Assembly (NCBI RefSeq): GCF_002288305.1
Contig: NZ_CP016779.1
Coordinates: 248,001-312,000, forward strand
From: Candidatus Nanopelagicus abundans
GTDB lineage: Bacteria > Actinomycetota > Actinomycetes > Nanopelagicales > Nanopelagicaceae
DNA length: 64,000 nucleotides
Direction: 5' to 3'
The notes beneath the pieces are model-generated. The model searched no databases and was not told the origin of the DNA. It was given only the letters and a program-made list of their open reading frames with translations. The position numbers were made by a program, and so were the translations under genes. Below are positions 1 to 8,672 of the stretch, piece after piece (the stretch's first letter is position 1; each line of letters begins with the position of its first letter).

Positions 1-305
1 ATTCCAAGAGCAGCACCGAAATCTGCAACTTTATGTTTGCGTGAGAAGTGTGTGAATAGCGCAGCTACAAAGTACAGAACTAGACAAGCAGAGGCTAATA
101 CCCCAAGAGGTTTACTCCAGATACCTACAATGATGCCAAGTCCACCAGCGATTTCAAGACATGCAAGAACTGGTATTTGATTTGGTTTAACGCCAACTTT
201 AGCCATCGCTGCCATGACATCTGGTACCTTTTTAAGCTTTGAAATAGCTGATCCAATAGCGGCAAATGCAAGAAGTGCTGCGAATATGTTGAGTGCGATA
301 GTCAT
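1..305 (-). CDS. DoxX-family membrane protein, C-terminus cut by window edge
   Basis: Reading the minus strand from an ATG at 303-305 gives an open frame of 101 codons that runs off the left edge. The translation begins MTIALNIFAALLAFAAIG and has hydrophobic segments at about residues 3-18, 45-62 and 68-85. A short KKVPDVMAAMAKVG loop and the phrase LEIAGGLGIIVGIW are typical of DoxX/DoxX-like small inner-membrane proteins. Members of this family are four-helix proteins of about 120 residues and unsettled function, some linked to oxidative stress. It is divergent from the NTF2-like gene. The family call rests on pattern only. Confidence 0.65.
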   Translation of the reverse strand, partial: MTIALNIFAALLAFAAIGSAISKLKKVPDVMAAMAKVGVKPNQIPVLACLEIAGGLGIIVGIWSKPLGVLASACLVLYFVAALFTHFSRKHKVADFGAALG

Positions 306-380
306 TTATTTATCTGCTTTCTTGTTGAGGAGGTAGTTTTCTAGGAGCCTACAGCCTTGAAACACTTGAATACCAAGATT

Positions 381-408
381 CCGGCCTATAGGGCGACTCT
401 TCTTTAAT
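381..408 (+). repeat. Short direct repeat, copy 1
   Basis: The copy reads CCGGCCTATA followed by GGGCGACTCTTCTTTAAT. It lies between the DoxX gene and the NTF2-like gene. It is one of four same-strand copies in 1.4 kb; the others start at 953, 1345 and 1726. It has no internal dyad that would make it a terminator. Confidence 0.8.
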
Positions 409-479
409 TAGCCACAAATTAATCCAGTTTTTGGTTTATATTTCTTCTTACTGATAAATATTGAAAGGTCCAAAAGCGC

Positions 480-941
480 ATGCTTATATATAGTTCAATA
501 GTTGAGAAAATTGTTCGTAAAACATTTCTTGCGGTCCAGAATCATGACTATCAAGCGGTATTAAATGGTGTTTCCTCTAATAACCTCACCCATCGTTTTG
601 CAGGTCCTAACTCATTGGGCGGCATCCGACATGACAAAGAAGCACTAGGTAGATGGTTCAAAAGAGTCGGCACAGTTCTACCAGAACTTAAGTTTGATGT
701 AACAAATGTTTTAGTCCTCGGTGGGCCATGGAACACAACAGTTGTCGCCCGCTGGGTTGCCACCTGCAAACTTGAAAATGGAGAGCCATACGTAAATCCT
801 GGAATTCATGTAATCAAACTGCGTTGGGGTAAGGCATACGACTTCGATGTATATGAAGATACTTTTGCCGTGACAGTCGGGCTTGAAAAACAAGCAAAGT
901 CAGGAATTGCGGAAGCGTTAGCCCCGCAAATTGTGAGCTAA
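480..941 (+). CDS. NTF2-like (SnoaL-type) fold protein
   Basis: The 153-residue protein has the size and pattern of the SnoaL-like NTF2 superfamily: an N-terminal helix with a VQNHDYQAVLNGV phrase, a central F(A/K)..F-type helix around residues 50-65, then alternating strands including VVARWVATCKLENGEPYVNPGIHV. Members are cone-shaped barrels used as small-ligand isomerases, hydrolases or binding modules, and the substrate cannot be read here. A GAAAGG-like ribosome site sits about 10 nt before the ATG. The gene stands alone between repeat copies 1 and 2, as if it were a separate cassette. The fold call is moderately firm; the function is unknown. Confidence 0.65.
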   Translation: MLIYSSIVEKIVRKTFLAVQNHDYQAVLNGVSSNNLTHRFAGPNSLGGIRHDKEALGRWFKRVGTVLPELKFDVTNVLVLGGPWNTTVVARWVATCKLENGEPYVNPGIHVIKLRWGKAYDFDVYEDTFAVTVGLEKQAKSGIAEALAPQIVS

Positions 942-952
942 TCCAAACTTTT

Positions 953-976
953 CCGGCTTAAAGGGCGACTCTTCTT
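953..976 (+). repeat. Short direct repeat, copy 2
   Basis: The copy reads CCGGCTTAAA followed by GGGCGACTCTTCTTTT. It starts 11 nt after the stop of the NTF2-like gene and ends about 50 nt before the next gene. The 3' end diverges from copies 1 and 3 after the T-run. Confidence 0.75.
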
Positions 977-1027
977 TTCCTTGGCTGGAAATGACTTTAT
1001 TTTCAAACTCTTTGGCAGAATACGATC

Positions 1028-1333
1028 ATGTCCTACGTAGTTATTTTCCGCTCTACTCGCAACTTAGATGATGGGCATTTGTATTCTGAGTGGTCTGAAA
1101 AAATGGAGAATTTAGTTAAGACAATAGATGGCTATGAACATCATTTCGGTTTTCGAGATGCAACAAGTCGTGATGGGGTAACTGTTTCCTATTTCAGTTC
1201 TTTAGAGGCAATTTCTGAGTGGAAGAACTTAGGTGAGCACAAAGTGGCACAACAATTGGGTCGAGATTCCTTCTACGAGGAGTACTCGATTCAAGTCTGT
1301 GAAGTACTTCGGGATTATGGCTTTGAAGCATAA
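1028..1333 (+). CDS. Antibiotic biosynthesis monooxygenase (ABM) domain protein
   Basis: This 101-residue protein fits the dimeric alpha+beta ABM fold: an N-terminal strand (YVVIFRSTR), a helix with YSEWSEKMENLVKTIDGYEHHFGF, a strand with VTVSYFSSLEAISEWKNLGEH, and the C-terminal YSIQVCEVLRDYGFEA. The phrase SLEAISEWKNLGEH is close to the W-x-x-x-x-x-H signature of ABM proteins similar to YgiN/HmoA. Members are cofactor-free monooxygenases or heme/ligand-binding proteins; which applies here cannot be told. It sits between repeat copies 2 and 3 and shares no operon with a neighbour. Confidence 0.7.
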   Translation: MSYVVIFRSTRNLDDGHLYSEWSEKMENLVKTIDGYEHHFGFRDATSRDGVTVSYFSSLEAISEWKNLGEHKVAQQLGRDSFYEEYSIQVCEVLRDYGFEA

Positions 1334-1344
1334 GAGTCTTAACT

Positions 1345-1372
1345 CCGGCTTATAGGGCGACTCTTCTTTAAT
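1345..1372 (+). repeat. Short direct repeat, copy 3
   Basis: The copy reads CCGGCTTATA followed by GGGCGACTCTTCTTTAAT, differing from copy 1 by one base. It starts 11 nt after the stop of the ABM gene, the same distance that copy 2 keeps from the NTF2-like gene stop. Confidence 0.8.
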
Positions 1373-1375
1373 TTT

Positions 1376-1470
1376 AGTTACTGCGAGTAACTGAGAAATG
1401 TGTAATACTTCTGCTTCAGATGTTTGGTAGTAATTGGGACTTGGTTAATTCCAAGTCCCTTTTGCTTTTT
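1376..1470 (+). ncRNA. Possible small RNA ending in a strong terminator
   Basis: Directly after repeat copy 3 is a perfect stem AGTTACT-GCG-AGTAACT (1376-1392), then about 40 nt with little self-pairing, then a terminator hairpin at 1436-1459. Stem, free middle and Rho-independent terminator is a common small-RNA plan. The middle (1410-1430) is complementary to 1578-1598 in the tRNA-like element downstream, with 17 Watson-Crick and 4 G-U pairs and a perfect 13-nt core CAGATGTTTGGTA. No promoter could be assigned, so expression is inferred. It could also be untranslated sequence of the ABM transcript. Confidence 0.4.
1436..1470 (+). terminator. Rho-independent terminator
   Basis: A perfect 9-bp stem GGGACTTGG / CCAAGTCCC encloses the loop TTAATT and is followed by TTTTGCTTTTT. 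It can end the ABM transcript or the putative small RNA. Confidence 0.85.
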
Positions 1471-1546
1471 ACTTCAAATTTTATCCACAGAGAACGCCAC
1501 TGAATAATTTCAAAAGTTTTAAAAGCCGTAACTTCACCCTTGTGAT

Positions 1547-1621
1547 GGGGGCGTGTTGTAATTGGCAGCCTAGTCGTTTACCAAACATCTGGAGCGGGTT
1601 CAAGTCCCGTCGTCTCCACCA
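1547..1621 (+). ncRNA. tRNA-like element with acceptor stem, T-arm and CCA but poor D and anticodon arms
   Basis: GGGGGCG (1547-1553) pairs with CGTCTCC (1611-1617), giving 7 pairs of which two are G-U. A T-arm follows normal rules: GCGGG, loop TTCAAGT, CCCGT (1594-1610). A discriminator A and encoded CCA end at 1621, and the total length of 75 nt is that of a tRNA. The middle does not fold properly: the D stem would be TTGT/CTAG with one mismatch and two wobbles, and the anticodon stem GTCGT/ACATC has two mismatches around loop TTACCAA. The 3' part also resembles tmRNA 3' ends (GGA..GCGGGTTCAA..CTCCACCA). Possible readings are a degenerate tRNA, an island attachment scar, or a tRNA-like regulatory RNA. 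Confidence 0.45.
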
Positions 1622-1628
1622 CAGTCTT

Positions 1629-1715
1629 AGCTAAGGCAATTCGATCTATTGGTAATGGTCAAAAGAATTGAGTTAGCTCTGCATGGGAGGGCCTTGAGAG
1701 ATCGAGGCCCTTCTC
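1629..1715 (+). terminator. Structured trailer and terminator after the tRNA-like element
   Basis: AGCTAA-GG-CAATTC (1629-1642) pairs with GAATTG-AG-TTAGCT (1665-1678) as a 12-bp helix with a 2x2 internal loop. It is followed by the hairpin AGGGCCT / AGGCCCT (1688-1711) and a weak pyrimidine tail. This marks the end of a structured transcript starting at or before the tRNA-like element. Confidence 0.6.
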
Positions 1716-1725
1716 TAAATTTCAA

Positions 1726-1750
1726 CCTTATCGGGCGACTTTTCTTTAAA
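1726..1750 (+). repeat. Short direct repeat, copy 4 (diverged)
   Basis: The copy reads CCTTATC followed by GGGCGACTTTTCTTTAAAT. It keeps the GGGCGACT core and the TTCTTTAA end but has lost the CCGGC start. It closes the patch just before the nrdF terminator. Confidence 0.65.
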
Positions 1751-1752
1751 TC

Positions 1753-1780
1753 AAGTGGCAGGAGATAAAGCCCGCCACTT
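1753..1780 (-). terminator. Terminator of the nrdHIEF operon
   Basis: On the minus strand AAGTGGC and GCCACTT form a 7-bp stem, extended by GG/CC, about 14 nt beyond the nrdF stop. The downstream T-run is short. Confidence 0.6.
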
Positions 1781-1794
1781 ATTTTAATTAGCTA

Positions 1795-2781
<987 letters not shown>

Positions 2782-2810
2782 CTATCTTTGGTGGTTGGTT
2801 TTATTCTTAC

Positions 2811-4955
2811 TTACAACATGCAACTTACGCAGTCAGATACTTCAGTTCCTTCAAGTGCCATTTGGCGAATACGGATGTAGTAAATAGTTTTAATTCCAGC
2901 CTTCCACGCTGATATCTGTGCTTTATTGATATCACGGGTAGTAGCTGTGTCTTTGAAAAACAAGGTTAAAGAAAGACCTTGATCAACATGTTGGGTAGCA
3001 GCTGCGTAGGTGGCAATGATCTTCTCAGGGCCAACCTCATAAGCATCCTCGTAGTACTCAACGTTTTCATTAGTTAGATATGGCGCTGGATAGTAAACCC
3101 GGCCAAGTTTTCCTTCCTTACGGATTTCAATCTTGGAAGCAACTGGGTGAATTGAGCTAGTTGAGTTGTTGATATAAGAAATAGATCCAGTTGGTGGGAC
3201 TGCTTGTAGGTTCTGGTTATAAATACCATCTTTCATAACACTAGCTTTTAGGCTCTGCCAATCTGCTTGAGTTGGAATAGCGATATTAGCTTTTGCAAAT
3301 ATTTGCTTAACTCGATCAGTCTTAGGTGCCCAAGCTTGGTCGGTATATTTGCTAAAGAACTCACCACTTGCATACTTTGATTTCTCAAAGCCGACAAATG
3401 TTTTACCACGCTCAATTGAGATGGTATTCGATGCTTTTAATGCGTGAAATAAAATTGTATAGAAGTAGATATTTGTGAAATCAATACCTTCCTCTGAACC
3501 GTAATGAATCTTTTCTCTACCGAAGTAGCCGTGCAGATTCATCTGTCCTAAGCCAATTGCATGTGACTTCTCATTACCTTCTTTAATAGAGGTAACAGAT
3601 TCAATATTACTGATATCAGATACTGCAGTAAGGGCCCTAATAGATGCCTCAACTGTTAGAGCAAAATCAGGGGAGTCCATAGTTTTTGCAATGTTTAGGG
3701 AACCTAGGTTGCAGGAGATGTCTTTACCAACGTTTTTATAACTTAGATCAGCGTTATAAGTAGTAGGAGTATTGACCTGCAAGATTTCAGAACAAAGGTT
3801 GGACATATTAATTCGGCCATCAATTGGATTTGCGCGATTTACCGTGTCCTCATAAACAATGTATGGATAGCCTGATTCAAATTGTAACTCGGCGATAGTT
3901 TGAAATAGTTGGCGGGCATTTATCGTTGTTTTATTTATACGGGTATCAGCAACCATTTCTTGATATTTCTCAGTAATTGAAATATCACTCATTGGCACGC
4001 CATAAACTCGTTCAACATCATATGGAGAAAAGAGATACATATCTTCATTATTTCTAGCTAATTCAAGAGTGATATCTGGAATTACCACACCAAGACTTAA
4101 GCTTTTAATACGAACCTTCTCATCAGCATTCTCACGCTTAGTATCTAAGAATTTAAGAATATCTGGGTGGTGAACATTTAAATAAACTGCGCCAGCACCT
4201 TGGCGGGCACCTAATTGATTTGCATAACTAAATGCATCTTCAAGCATCTTCATTACTGGAATAACACCGGAGGATTGACCCTCAATCTTCTTAATAGGGG
4301 CGCCGCTCTCACGAATATTTGTTAGTGAAAGGGCAACACCGCCACCACGCTTTGATAACTGAAGGGAGGAGTTAATGGCTCGAGCAATTGATTCCATATT
4401 ATCTTCAGTGCGAAGTAGGAAGCAGGAAACTAATTCACCGCGTTGGGCCTTGCCACTGTTTAAAAATGTAGGAGTTGCTGGTTGAAAGCGGCCAGTAATT
4501 ATTTCAGCTACTAGGGTTTTAGCACGTGCTGGATTTGCCTCAGCTAGTAGTAAGGCAACCATTACGGTGCGCTGTTCAAAGTTTTCTAGGTACTTCTTAC
4601 CATCAAAGGTTTTAAGTGCGTAGCTGGTATAAAACTTAAAGGCGCCTAAAAATGATTCAAACTCAAAATTAAATGAGGCGGCGTAATCATGGATTTCAGC
4701 TAAAAACTCTGGTGTGTATTTTGCTAGTAAATCAGCCTCGTAATACTCGTTATCTACTAAATAGGCTAAGCGTTGAGTGAGGTTATCAAAGGTAATGGTG
4801 TTATTAACAACATGATCTGAGAGATACATCTGAGCAGCCTGGCGATCCTTATCAAATTGGATCTTGCCATCTGGGCCATACAAATTAAGCATGGCATTTA
4901 GCTCGTGATAGCTGTACTTAGATTCTACCGGCTGATCAATTAAAATTGTGTCCAT
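2811..4955 (-). CDS. nrdE: Class Ib ribonucleoside-diphosphate reductase, alpha subunit
   Basis: NrdE is the catalytic subunit. The 714 residues match the class Ib size. Active-site elements are visible: [18 protein letters not shown] holds the first redox cysteine, NLCSEI carries the Asn-Cys-Glu catalytic triad with the thiyl cysteine, [12 protein letters not shown] carries the partner cysteine, and [19 protein letters not shown] is the phosphate-binding region. The C-terminus ends SDCVSCML, the CxxC shuttle that NrdH reduces. There is no N-terminal ATP-cone, as expected for class Ib. It overlaps nrdI by 16 nt. Confidence 0.97.
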
Positions 4956-5347
4956 AGGTTTTCCATTCTCTCAGTTACCATTTCAACATCATATTTAGTA
5001 CCAATTAATTCAAACTTGTAAAGCAACGGCACATTGCACTTATCTGCAACTAATTTACCGGCGTAGCAGTACTTACTTCCAAAATTAGTATTGCCAGAGG
5101 CAATTACTCCTTTTAGTAGAGCACGGTTATGGGCAAGATTGAGGAATTTAATTACCTGCTTTGGAATACCAGAGTCAGCATCGGTAGTTCCATAGGTTGG
5201 AGTAATTAAAACAAATGGCTTATTAACTTGAGGAATTTCTAACTTTTGGTTAAGCGGTATTCGCACAGCATCTACATCTAACTTCTCGACAAACCTTTTA
5301 GTGTTCTCAGATACATTTGAGAAGTAGACAACTTGGTGCATTGTCAT
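4940..5347 (-). CDS. nrdI: Flavodoxin-like NrdI protein for NrdF cofactor assembly
   Basis: NrdI is an FMN protein that supplies the oxidant for assembling the Mn(III)2-tyrosyl radical in NrdF. The 135-residue product starts with the flavodoxin-like strand [17 protein letters not shown] and contains [18 protein letters not shown] and [16 protein letters not shown], which are typical NrdI flavin-loop regions. It overlaps nrdH by 4 nt and nrdE by 16 nt, so translation is probably coupled. Confidence 0.95.
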
Positions 5348-5580
5348 ACTTTCTCACCTTTAGTTAGTTTGTATAACTTATCTGGGCGAAAGCCAGACCA
5401 GTGAGCGTCCCCTGCAATTACAACCGGTACTCGGTCATAACCTAGAGATTTAATAACATCATATTCTTTTGGATTTTCACTTAGATCAACAGTTTCATAG
5501 GCAAGATTGTTTTTCTCAAGATATAACTTAGTAGTCTCACACTGCGCGCAATCAGGCAGGGTATAGAGTGTGATAGCCAT
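5344..5580 (-). CDS. nrdH: NrdH glutaredoxin-like electron donor for NrdE
   Basis: This is a 78-residue thioredoxin-fold protein with the redox motif CAQC near residues 11-14 and the C-terminal WSGFRPDKL stretch that characterises NrdH redoxins rather than true glutaredoxins. It transfers electrons, usually from thioredoxin reductase, to the NrdE CxxC tail. It is the first gene of the operon. The AGGAG ribosome site just before its ATG is part of a long hairpin downstream of a cobalamin riboswitch. Confidence 0.95.
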   Translation of the reverse strand: MAITLYTLPDCAQCETTKLYLEKNNLAYETVDLSENPKEYDVIKSLGYDRVPVVIAGDAHWSGFRPDKLYKLTKGEKV

Positions 5581-5581
5581 G

Positions 5582-5631
5582 TTAATCTCCTAGGAATAGT
5601 TTCTTATTCGTCGAGTCCAAGGAGAGATTAA
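5582..5631 (-). promoter_or_regulatory. Hairpin sequestering the nrdH ribosome-binding site
   Basis: On the minus strand GAGATTAA, which includes the nrdH Shine-Dalgarno, pairs with TTAATCTC upstream (8 perfect pairs). After a 2-nt bulge the stem goes on with about five more pairs around TCCTAGG / CCTTGGA. A second hairpin, AAGCAGAT / ATCTGCTT, lies just upstream at 5638-5655. This is a plausible expression platform for translational control by the riboswitch. Confidence 0.65.
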
Positions 5632-5697
5632 TCAGGTAAGCAGATAAATCTGCTTCTAAAGCATCTCCCCGCTTTCCACGACGGGTATTACTTGCTC

Positions 5698-5786
5698 AGC
5701 ACTTGTTAGGCGATCCGACTTACTCTTTCGAGCTTACGGTTGCGGGACAGCACTAGAGTTTCACTAGTTTCCCCTATGAAGTGCTT
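5698..5786 (-). promoter_or_regulatory. Cobalamin (B12) riboswitch aptamer controlling nrdHIEF
   Basis: The minus strand has the conserved cobalamin core in order: GGGGAAACTAGTGAAACTC, then GTGCTGTCCCGCAACCGTAAGC, then AGTCGGATCGCC. A closing P1 stem AGCACTT / AAGTGCT pairs 5698-5704 with 5779-5785. These match the known aptamer consensus (GGGAA, GGTGAAA, CxGxCCCGCAACxGT, AGTCxGxxxxCC). It lies between a good -10 box and nrdH. In Streptomyces a B12 riboswitch represses the B12-independent reductase when coenzyme is available; the same logic is inferred here for a class Ib enzyme. Confidence 0.9.
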
Positions 5787-5802
5787 ACTTATTGGGAAAT
5801 GA

Positions 5803-5808
5803 ATTATA
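5803..5808 (-). promoter_or_regulatory. -10 box of the nrdHIEF promoter
   Basis: TATAAT is present on the minus strand, placing the start of transcription near 5796, about 10 nt before the aptamer P1 stem. No convincing -35 hexamer is seen at 16-18 nt. Confidence 0.6.
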
Positions 5809-5858
5809 GCCAAAAGCGGTGTCGCTACTAGGGAGGCAGAGTGGTGGCGGGTGTCTCA

Positions 5859-6530
5859 TTACCTACTGCTGGGGCGCAGGGTTTTAAAGGAATAGGGCAG
5901 CAGCTCTTTAACACAAATAGCCAACATGATCCCGGCCACAAAGCTAAGCAAGGCGCCAGCATTTTGAATATTTGCGAACAGATCATCACTTAAAAAGATC
6001 GCCGTTGCCCCAAGCATCTCAGCCAGGGTTGCCGTCAGGGTTAGTAGTAGGGATTTAAGGTGGCCATAGCCGGCCAATATGGCACTCGCGGTAATAGCAA
6101 TTCCTTCTGGAATATTGTGAAGTGCCATTAAGAGGGCAGTGGTAACCCCAGTTGGCAGATCAACCAAACTGGCAGCAATTGGAGCGGAGCCTTCAGGCAG
6201 ATTATGTAGTGATAGCGCTAGGGCAATAACTAAAGCTGAAGAAGATGGACCGCTGCCAACTTTTATTGACATTAATTTTGATATTAATAAGACAAGTGAA
6301 AAGCCTGCAATGAGAAAAATAAATACCTGCGTTTGCGCAAGGCCACTATCTAGCGCGGTTGGAATAAGTTGAATTAAATCAACTAAAATCATTGCAAGTG
6401 CAACAAAAAGGAATATGTAAGCAATTAGTCGCTCAGATGGATTTGATTTAATTCTCATTACTACCCAACCCAATAAAGTGGCAGAGGCAGCAGCTAGGGA
6501 GAGGATGTAACCAATCTCTAGTGACTGCAT
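5859..6530 (-). CDS. ZIP-family divalent metal transporter
   Basis: This 223-residue integral membrane protein has about seven hydrophobic segments and two copies of the ZIP metal-path motif, HNLPEG (around residue 108) and HNIPEG (around 137), in transmembrane helices 4 and 5. ZIP proteins move Zn2+, Fe2+ or Mn2+ into the cytosol. Its place directly upstream of the Mn/Fe-dependent reductase operon makes Mn or Fe uptake attractive, but the sequence does not decide the metal. nrdH has its own promoter downstream, so co-transcription is not required. Confidence 0.85.
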   Translation of the reverse strand: MQSLEIGYILSLAAASATLLGWVVMRIKSNPSERLIAYIFLFVALAMILVDLIQLIPTALDSGLAQTQVFIFLIAGFSLVLLISKLMSIKVGSGPSSSALVIALALSLHNLPEGSAPIAASLVDLPTGVTTALLMALHNIPEGIAITASAILAGYGHLKSLLLTLTATLAEMLGATAIFLSDDLFANIQNAGALLSFVAGIMLAICVKELLPYSFKTLRPSSR

Positions 6531-6594
6531 GTTTTAAAGTCTCTTTCTATAAAAGTTCTAGCAATCATATTGCCTAAATGACATTCGCGACTGA

Positions 6595-6837
6595 TTAACT
6601 TAACTCCACTAATTTATCAGCAACCTGCTGCGCAGATGGATTTGTCATAGCACTGCCATCTGAGAAGACTAGGGTTGGAACAGTTCGGTTGCCGTTATTT
6701 ACTTTTTCGACAATCTCAGCGCTTCCTTCGACCTCTTCAATATTAATCTCTTCAAATGAGATATCCATTCTCGCCAGCTGATTTTTTAGCCGCTTGCAAT
6801 AACCACACCAAGTAGTTGAATACATTACAAATGACAT
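6595..6837 (-). CDS. Mycoredoxin-like glutaredoxin
   Basis: This 80-residue thioredoxin-fold protein has the active site CGYC (residues 11-14) after MYSTTWCGYC, a TVPTLVF cis-proline loop and a C-terminal NPSAQQVADKL helix. This arrangement is that of actinobacterial mycoredoxin-1, which reduces mycothiol-mixed disulfides. NrdH function is less likely because the WSGFRPD region is absent. It lies between a ZIP gene and an acetyltransferase on the same strand. Confidence 0.8.
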   Translation of the reverse strand: MSFVMYSTTWCGYCKRLKNQLARMDISFEEINIEEVEGSAEIVEKVNNGNRTVPTLVFSDGSAMTNPSAQQVADKLVELS

Positions 6838-6870
6838 ATTTCCTCCATTTAAGGCTTTAATTGGCTTAAA

Positions 6871-7314
6871 TTACTTATTTAAATAGATCTTATACTCCAC
6901 CCTATTTGTAATCGCTATCTTGTCATAAAGTGTTCTAGCTAGTTCATTATCTGGGGCAGTTGTCCAGTAAAGTCGCTTTGAGCCTTTTGCTATTGCAATA
7001 TCTTCAACCGCTTTAATTAATGCTCTGCCAACTCCCTTACCTCTCACCTTTGGGTCGGTATAAAGATCCTCTAGGTAGCAAAAATCCTGCTCCTCCCAGG
7101 TGTCAGGACGCCAGATGTAGTGGGTAAAGCCGACTACCTTTGAATCTAATTCAGCTACTAGGCAATTAATATTAAAATCTGAGTTAATTCTTTGCCAGGT
7201 TAATTCAAATTGTTGATCAGTTAACTTAGAGTTATAAAAAGTGATGTAGTCGGCAAATAGTTCAAGCCAGCGTGATTTATCATCTTTGTTTACTGCTCTA
7301 ATTTTTATATCCAT
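6871..7314 (-). CDS. GNAT-family N-acetyltransferase
   Basis: The 147-residue protein contains the acetyl-CoA binding segment DLYTDPKVRGKGVGRALIKAV (motif A, R-x-x-G-x-G at about residues 94-100) and a typical C-terminal LYDKIAI-like Tyr region. The aromatic-rich WRPDTWEEQDFCYLEDLY precedes motif A. GNATs acetylate amines of small molecules or proteins; the substrate cannot be deduced. It follows the FGGY kinase by 44 nt on the same strand. Confidence 0.85.
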   Translation of the reverse strand: MDIKIRAVNKDDKSRWLELFADYITFYNSKLTDQQFELTWQRINSDFNINCLVAELDSKVVGFTHYIWRPDTWEEQDFCYLEDLYTDPKVRGKGVGRALIKAVEDIAIAKGSKRLYWTTAPDNELARTLYDKIAITNRVEYKIYLNK

Positions 7315-7358
7315 AATAGATCTTATACCTTTTATTTGTATCCCCGAATTAGATATCT

Positions 7359-8672
7359 TTAAATTGCAAGATTTATTATTCCAGCAGCAATTCCGGCAAA
7401 TTGCGCAGCACCCGTTGCACCCGCCTCCTGAGCATCGGAGACTTTATATTCCCCAAACTGCTTACTCTTCTGACTTGCAATCATGGGATTCTTTATCCAG
7501 CCACCAGCAATAATTACTTCTTTAGATTTTCCGGTGAACTTTTCAATCAGGCTAACCATTTGTTCAGAGTCCTTTACTAAATGTTCAGTTGCAGCTCTAA
7601 AAAGTGCGGCCGGTGAGGCACCTTCATCTAAGTTTGTTACTGAAAGTCCGTGATAATCATTAACAATTTGTAATGTATTTGTAGAGGAATCAACTTTTAA
7701 AGCTGCCTCTCCCAAAGCAATCTTTTCTGCGCGAGTTTTTACACCAACTAGGGCACATACTCGCTCCAGTGTTAGGCCAGTAGGAAGTGCTCCCAGTAAT
7801 GTGTAGTGATCTGGGATTACCGAGCAACTTAATCCAACATTTGCGGCCGCAAGTTCTGCGATTGCCTCCCTCGGTAATGAGGTTTTAAATGTGCGCAGAA
7901 GTGCTTCAGCAGTACCCATTGAATCAAAGAGAGTTCCCTCATTAATAGCGCCACTATAAAAAGCAGCGGTAAAGTGATCATGTCCTGCAATTGTTATTAT
8001 TGCCCCTCGTAAGTTTTCAGGTGCACTTTGATTAACTCGACCAATTACCTCACCGGCTACAACTAATCGAGCAAGGAAATCTTTACCACCACCTACTAAT
8101 GCAATTGCCTCAAGCCAAGGGGTGCGCGCTTCAACATCAAAGAATCCAGAGCGAGATATTAAAGATAATTCATTAACCATTTCAGCGCCTAAGCAGTAAG
8201 CAACCCATTCAGGAGCTGATAGAAAATATTTAGCGCTCCTTGTTTTGGGATACTCTTTATTAAGCCATAGAGTTTTAGAAAGTGAAACAATTTCATTAAC
8301 CGGGGCACCGGCGCGAGCACGGAATTCAAAATCTCCAAGCTCTTTAATTATTGGCTCAGTTAATCCGCGTGGATCATGCCAAGCAAGGCCTGGGGCAAGT
8401 GGGTTTCCGGCATCATCGAGCAAGAAGCCAGTCTCACTAAAACCAGTAAATGCAATTGCAGCTACAACTCCGCCAGCATCTTGGGCAGCTTTCGAGGCCA
8501 CAGAGATAACTGTCTGCGCGAGTTTGCGAGCATCGATTTCACTAAAATTTTTCTCATGTGTGAAAGGTGTAATCTCTGAATACTCTGCAAGTATTTTTAA
8601 ACTTGTATCAGTTGCTACAGCTTTAATATTTGATGTACCGATATCTACACCAATGAGTATTTGTTTAGACAT
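7359..8672 (-). CDS. FGGY-family carbohydrate kinase
   Basis: This is an ATP-dependent kinase of the glycerol/xylulose/gluconate kinase superfamily. The N-terminal ATPase loop GVDIGTSNIKAVATD (residues 8-22), the mid-protein GHDHFTAAFYSGAINEGTLFDSMGTAEALL and the C-terminal adenosine-site VIIAGGWIKNP are visible. At 437 residues it is shorter than the usual 480-520. It is the only minus-strand gene at the left end of the catabolic island, divergent from the aldolase, and would phosphorylate a sugar or polyol from that pathway. The substrate is not readable. Confidence 0.8.
   Translation of the reverse strand: MSKQILIGVDIGTSNIKAVATDTSLKILAEYSEITPFTHEKNFSEIDARKLAQTVISVASKAAQDAGGVVAAIAFTGFSETGFLLDDAGNPLAPGLAWHDPRGLTEPIIKELGDFEFRARAGAPVNEIVSLSKTLWLNKEYPKTRSAKYFLSAPEWVAYCLGAEMVNELSLISRSGFFDVEARTPWLEAIALVGGGKDFLARLVVAGEVIGRVNQSAPENLRGAIITIAGHDHFTAAFYSGAINEGTLFDSMGTAEALLRTFKTSLPREAIAELAAANVGLSCSVIPDHYTLLGALPTGLTLERVCALVGVKTRAEKIALGEAALKVDSSTNTLQIVNDYHGLSVTNLDEGASPAALFRAATEHLVKDSEQMVSLIEKFTGKSKEVIIAGGWIKNPMIASQKSKQFGEYKVSDAQEAGATGAAQFAGIAAGIINLAI

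Follow-up and report, generated by a model that had tools for sequence, protein, structure and literature searches.

The stretch analysed here (the window) comprises 64,000 nucleotides of the 1.16 Mb genome of Candidatus Nanopelagicus abundans (contig NZ_CP016779.1, positions 248,001 to 312,000). Near its left end a short cassette carries two candidate RNAs: a tRNA-like RNA and, upstream of it, a small antisense RNA with a segment complementary to the anticodon arm of the tRNA-like RNA. Across relatives this target in the anticodon arm is hypervariable, and the antisense segment changes along with it. We favour, with a probability of about 0.55, the reading that the two form a mobile RNA-only addiction or immunity module, in which an alanine-charged hybrid tRNA would misread glycine GGY codons and would be silenced by its cognate antisense RNA.

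Covariation of the antisense segment with its target

An earlier note on this DNA had reported that 1410-1430 can pair with 1578-1598. Our recount gave the same 17 Watson-Crick and four G-U pairs, with no mismatch and a contiguous Watson-Crick core of 13 bp. The note had judged such a perfect 13-mer unlikely by chance and, indeed, in 40 random 300-nucleotide pieces of the window, the longest reverse-complement match with arms at least 100 nucleotides apart was 9 nucleotides. Co-folding, which the note had proposed as a check, was run on 1372-1720 and placed both segments in a single helix (z = -6.7). The covarying core of the pairing is narrower, 1416-1429 with 1579-1592 (13 Watson-Crick pairs and one G-U). 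Of the target as first described, anticodon loop plus 5' strand of the T stem, the loop is retained; the rest of the target is the anticodon stem's 3' strand, and the T stem is touched just by the target's end.

Relatives were found by searching genomes with models, and all counts given for them cover related genomes, not independent events. Antisense and target read CAGATGTTTGGTA/TACCAAACATCTG in the window, CAGTGGTTTGGTA/TACCAAACCACTG in genome G023, CGATGGATTGGTA/TACCAATCCATCG in G022 and, with one G-U pair, CTTCAGTTTGGCA/TGCCAAATTGAAG in G013. Scanning upstream regions without assuming the position of the antisense, at a threshold of at least 12 of 14 positions, revealed a segment for 43 of the 46 distinct tRNA-like RNAs (93%); the rate was 11.6% when upstream regions came from other loci and 0.2% for shuffled ones. 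At the eight variable positions, 42 adjacent pairs of genes formed 291 base pairs versus 204 (standard deviation 6.6) with permuted partners, and the maximum among 10,000 permutations was 234. The compensatory changes by which the earlier note had proposed to check the pairing are thus strongly present, and they bear out one of its three readings, the RNA-RNA pair. Three tRNA-like RNAs were exceptions: L096 pairs at another site, so that the anticodon-arm test is inapplicable to its class; L244 still reaches 12 of 14 with two G-U pairs; and L018 has a broken acceptor stem. Median duplex energy was -27.4 kcal/mol for own partners versus -17.8 for others. Duplex energy was rejected as a classifier: in just 20 of 52 cases did the nearest antisense pair best, because loci share target types and the nearest copy is not always the cognate one.

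The layout of the two genes points to two RNAs, the antisense one having its own extended -10 and terminator, with the transcripts themselves predicted from these signals. The antisense RNA would start at or just before the antisense segment and end at the terminator 1436-1470. The earlier note had seen a small-RNA plan of hairpin, segment and terminator. Its terminator was kept, and its hairpin, the palindrome 1378-1390, was ruled out as a part of the RNA, since it precedes the predicted -10 (1401-1409) and varies like a DNA box. From this upstream position it is more likely a DNA operator (TNAC-N5-GTNA); we liken it to TNACN5GTNA, which we take to be the BldD box consensus. Such a BldD-box-like motif lies at most 60 nucleotides upstream of the -10 in 35 of 56 cognate antisense genes, versus 1.4% of shuffles. 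No Rfam family matched the antisense RNA at gathering or lax thresholds, a lax sX12 match being merely a terminator-like hairpin. At 1480-1492 of the window stands TTATCCACA, a DnaA-box-like 9-mer; this or TTTTCCACA follows soon after the antisense terminator in many relatives.

Antisense genes also occur in tandem, where the cognate copy can be the distal one (L054, L072, L078) and a non-matching antisense gene can separate it from the tRNA-like RNA. Solo antisense genes, with no tRNA-like RNA nearby, occur as well. In 16 loci from complete or near-complete genomes, all 17 tRNA-like RNAs have antisense pairing at 12 or more of 14 positions, G-U counted. The putative toxin is therefore not kept there without its linked antitoxin, and among the 46 distinct tRNA-like RNAs L018 is the one clear exception. 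Six of these 16 loci hold extra antisense RNAs, mostly with a poorer match to the local tRNA-like RNA. When extra and solo segments were compared with the known tRNA-like RNAs of other genomes, 18 of 25 matched one at 13 or more of 14 positions, versus 30% for column-shuffled segments. This resembles a pattern of antidotes kept for immunity, like orphan antidotes.

A second antisense class was found at four tRNA-like RNAs with U73 (G163 L096, G035 L033:3123, G026 C2:204026 and G026 C3:306808). Here the upstream RNA is longer and is complementary to the acceptor 3' strand at 11-12 of 12 positions; the pairing covaries over the four loci, and non-cognate combinations are mostly worse. By pairing at the anticodon arm in one class and at the acceptor 3' strand in the other, the antisense RNAs would block both functional ends of a tRNA, and we count these two independent ways of blocking a working tRNA end in favour of the proposed module. 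The acceptor-paired class (L096, L033:2950-3200, L290, L291) has 9-nucleotide anticodon loops and strong stems.

Hybrid identity of the tRNA-like RNA

ARAGORN and Rfam both call a tRNA with anticodon ACC at 1547-1621, in line with the tRNA-like nature claimed in the earlier note. The element has the covarying cloverleaf and the CCA end of a canonical tRNA (RF00005, 34.7 bits). In the alignment of relatives, 99.4% of acceptor cells, 98.3% of T stem cells, 73% of anticodon stem cells and 65% of D stem cells are paired. Compensatory changes occur in the acceptor and T stems, and the anticodon stem consists of four pairs and a conserved 29-41 mismatch. Downstream, the loop of a trailer hairpin (TTGGTA) complements the molecule's own anticodon loop, and at one position the classes differ by an exchange of A-U for G-C; self-inhibition of the precursor by this complementarity is possible.

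The identity set of alanyl-tRNA synthetase (AlaRS), G3·U70 with A73, is present in 42 of 53 tRNA-like RNAs, and the exceptions in the ACC class all have damaged acceptor stems. Among the host tRNAs examined, G3·U70 was found only in the two tRNA-Ala, which are identical to the tRNA-like RNA in the first four acceptor pairs and A73. In a second genome it was again limited to tRNA-Ala, except for one ARAGORN call resembling the end of a transfer-messenger RNA (tmRNA). The anticodon loop, TTACCAA, differs from that of host tRNA-Gly(GCC), TTGCCAA, by the sole change of G34 to A. As judged from its sequence, the main-class tRNA-like RNA is a hybrid of host tRNA-Ala acceptor identity and a glycine anticodon loop. 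For charging by AlaRS, G3:U70 suffices, and the literature describes a human tRNA-Ala that carries an ACC anticodon and reads glycine codons as alanine (PMC11415595). A tRNA-Gly with A34 is nearly banished from organisms (PMC6720975). The commonest glycine codon in the long open reading frames (ORFs) of the window is GGU (534/1300).

Alanine identity does not extend to all classes. A minority class with anticodon GCC and expanded 9-nucleotide anticodon loops has mostly U3·G70, G3-C70 or U3-A70 instead of G3·U70, and the acceptor-paired class has U73. Alanine is thus not the common payload of all classes, and the payload of the minority classes must differ.

The acceptor end GGGG..CUCC-A-CCA with G3·U70 is shared with tmRNA as well as tRNA-Ala. 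However, the 75-nucleotide cloverleaf has full D and anticodon arms, an ACC anticodon and no tag reading frame, and its Rfam tmRNA score (32.3 bits) is below the gathering score of 47.

Proposed mechanism and alternatives

In the module that we propose, the first RNA, about 75 nucleotides when mature, would be transcribed with a 3' trailer and terminator and would act as a functional hybrid-identity tRNA. The loop of the trailer hairpin may hold the anticodon loop closed in the precursor, until released by 3' processing. AlaRS would charge the main class with alanine, because its acceptor carries the G3·U70 and A73 of tRNA-Ala; the likeness to the alanylated tmRNA end fits such charging. Once charged, the tRNA-like RNA would read glycine GGU and GGC via anticodon ACC (GCC in the minority class) and, in the main class, insert alanine. 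The second RNA, of about 50-55 nucleotides and with its own promoter, would pair through 13-14 nucleotides of its 5' end with the anticodon loop and 3' anticodon stem, blocking decoding and perhaps also triggering RNase attack. Loss of the cassette would leave the stabler tRNA unguarded, which would be addiction. Because the antisense is sequence specific, each tRNA-like RNA must travel with its own antidote, and hosts would collect extra antidotes against foreign versions, which would be immunity. The strongest form of the idea is a selfish all-RNA poison-antidote system: a working tRNA recoding GGY glycine as alanine, diversified antisense antidotes exchanged like immunity genes, and mistranslation as the weapon. 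We hold this form tentatively, at somewhat less than an even chance.

Several points weigh against the module. That two transcripts are expressed, that the tRNA-like RNA is alanylated, mistranslates and is toxic, and that the pair acts in addiction or immunity are all inferred from sequence. The GCC class with 9-nucleotide loops mostly lacks G3·U70, and the acceptor-paired class has U73. Decoding efficiency is uncertain, given the conserved 29-41 mismatch and weak D stem, and replacing glycine by alanine may do little harm. No antisense lies next to L018, though its acceptor stem is broken. Finally, the genomes are related and the pairs not fully independent; yet there are 36 distinct targets.

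Ordinary regulation, in which a useful accessory tRNA or tRNA-like regulator is tuned by an antisense small RNA under BldD-type control, seems improbable to us. It would account for the operator-like box before many antisense promoters and for the intact cloverleaf. It does not predict, however, hypervariable specificity, extra antisense genes or solo ones against absent partners, cassette carriage or patchy presence, and a mismatch between an alanine acceptor and a glycine anticodon is hard to call useful.

Equally to be weighed is an addiction or immunity module without mistranslation, where the tRNA-like RNA enters the ribosome uncharged, causes frameshifts through 9-nucleotide loops, or titrates AlaRS, EF-Tu, RNase P or a nuclease. 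The minority classes, with their 9-nucleotide anticodon loops and acceptors with U73 or without G3·U70, would suit it, as would the acceptor-paired antisense class, which implies that the acceptor end matters too. We nevertheless consider it unlikely, as the main class keeps the full alanine identity set and a glycine loop, needless for a pure decoy.

A tRNA-like RNA that senses or baits phage anticodon nucleases, and is held in reserve by the antisense RNA, is very unlikely. The hypervariable loop flanks do resemble an arms race and the setting is mobile, but scans of viral contigs for the exact patterns of both RNAs found nothing, and no linked defence genes turned up, although no systematic search for them was made.

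Least credible are the two other readings of the earlier note, a long helix within one larger RNA and a folded recombination site of the cassette: the fold of 1372-1720 does yield the helix, but a terminator and promoters lie between the segments, cognate antisense genes can be distal with non-matching ones in between, solo copies exist, and the repeat resembling a recombination site is another sequence, the rnpB 3' end at 1344-1369.

A T-box-like reading was also rejected, because the pairing spans 13-14 nucleotides and no gene follows the terminator.

By its components, the mistranslation module that we favour would be a type VIII toxin-antitoxin system if toxicity were shown; both validated examples in TADB 3.0, creTA and SdsR-RyeA (PMC10767807), work differently. 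As in that type, both partners are RNAs encoded close together, and CreT toxins, which sequester tRNA, likewise act on translation (PMC8501985). CreA, however, acts through Cascade on the creT promoter, and SdsR and RyeA are encoded on opposite strands, whereas the antisense here is a separate, hypervariable RNA acting in trans; and the putative toxin here is itself tRNA-like, its toxicity being presumed. The specific covarying pairing expected of an antitoxin is present (93% versus 12% in crosses and 0.2% shuffled), and would silence the tRNA-like RNA. No CRISPR repeats were seen in the aligned antisense RNAs; no search for cas genes was made.

Plasmid copy-control and type I antisense pairs such as CopA-CopT, RNAI-RNAII and hok-sok likewise combine specific pairing with compensatory divergence into incompatibility-like specificities. 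Those antisense RNAs act on replication primers or mRNAs rather than on tRNAs and are usually read from the strand opposite their target in the same DNA.

The tRNA-ProX of Streptomyces, which have A34, join the body of one amino acid's tRNA to the anticodon of another (PMC11415595). They share with our element an actinobacterial, hybrid identity and A34. They are, however, paired with a dedicated synthetase, ProRSx, whereas our element would need no synthetase beyond the host AlaRS and has an antisense RNA as its partner; nor have mobile arrays or hypervariable arms been described for tRNA-ProX. The ORFs of window 1-8000 were listed, and Pfam searches of four genes near the unit showed none of the four to be a synthetase.

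In the literature searched, where subscription journals were sparsely covered, no description of a tRNA-like toxin that an antisense RNA silences turned up. If the proposal is true, the toxin itself is a tRNA and the antitoxin silences it by pairing with the anticodon arm. This would tie hybrid-identity tRNAs, of unknown purpose in bacteria (PMC11415595), to mobile-element addiction or immunity, supply many naturally orthogonal antisense/tRNA pairs, and account for some of the cassette-array cargo of abundant freshwater bacteria (acI-type actinobacteria). With a specificity code of about 7-8 variable positions, the question of addiction or immunity lends itself to direct testing.

Cassette setting and distribution

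Table 1. The cassette with the two RNAs, in window positions
Feature	Position	Strand	Remarks and basis
Left cassette edge, direct repeat equal to the rnpB 3' end (TCCGGCTTATAGGGCGACTCTTCTTT)	1344..1369	+	four copies in the genome within 3 mismatches; the rnpB gene itself ends with the first copy
Palindrome TTAC-TGCGA-GTAA	1378..1390	.	BldD-box-like (TNACN5GTNA); probable operator of the antisense promoter
Extended -10 of the antisense RNA, TGTAATACT	1401..1409	+	TG, A5-T6 and T9 invariant in 32 aligned relatives
Antisense segment ('guide')	1416..1429	+	predicted 5' end of the small RNA; pairs with 1579-1592, covaries
Intrinsic terminator of the antisense RNA	1436..1470	+	stem 1436-1444/1451-1459 and T tract; sequence, fold, conservation
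tRNA-like RNA	1547..1621	+	Ala-type acceptor (G3=1549·U70=1615, A73=1618, CCA 1619-1621); Gly-type anticodon ACC 1580-1582 in loop TTACCAA; ARAGORN/Rfam, covariation, acceptor comparison
Antisense target, anticodon loop and hypervariable 3' anticodon-stem strand	1579..1592	+	36 distinct targets in 46 distinct tRNA-like RNAs
Trailer hairpin	1637..1670	+	loop TTGGTA (1649-1654) complements TACCAA of the anticodon loop; stems covary; loop-loop pairing in 96.5% of cells, A34-U/G34-C exchange
Intrinsic terminator of the tRNA-like transcript	1689..1716	+	sequence, predicted stem
Right cassette edge, degenerate rnpB-end repeat	1724..1747	+	–

Of 251 genomes of the family, 56 contain homologous units; at class level, 18 of 395 genomes have the antisense RNA, and only one of these 18 lies outside the family. 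The distribution is patchy and cassette-borne. Named records with the tRNA-like RNA include Nanopelagicaceae, Candidatus Planktophila (the cultured Candidatus Planktophila lacus MMS-21-148, NZ_CP016769.1) and acI bin LBMAG. Metagenome-assembled genomes titled Bifidobacterium breve that hold the unit (L213, L220, L224, L229, L237, L242, L256) look like mislabelled Nanopelagicaceae. Exact-pattern matches in Janthinobacterium, Chloroflexi, Prevotellaceae and archaeal records (L221, L235, L251, L257) do not fit the tRNA-like model.

The cassette belongs to an integron-like array (window 368-1747, L031:19767-19990, also L033 and L037-L043) of short cassettes separated by rnpB 3' ends (TCCGGCTTATAGGGCGACTCTTCT). 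The array begins at rnpB itself and stops before nrdB, and the six genomes searched hold 2-6 repeat copies within 3 mismatches. An integron attC reading of the pairing segments was rejected because the repeats correspond to the rnpB 3' end and not to those segments; integrases were not searched for. Two further repeats are dispersed in genomes G026 and G130 (L292, L290, L291, L297-L308): GGCAAYCCCRCTAGTCRTTAAT, with 22 and 13 copies, and GTGCCCARTTYCATCCCTTCGGGCGYA, with 11 and 10; the reversed control pattern gave none. Standing just upstream of some antisense units, these repeats are probably other cassette attachment sites.

Among the neighbours, the cassette ORF 1028-1333 matched no Pfam family, and the cassette gene at 480-941 encodes a SnoaL-like protein. 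Farther along the window, on the minus strand, a cobalamin riboswitch (Rfam RF00174, 5663-5811) lies upstream of a minus-strand nrd gene group.
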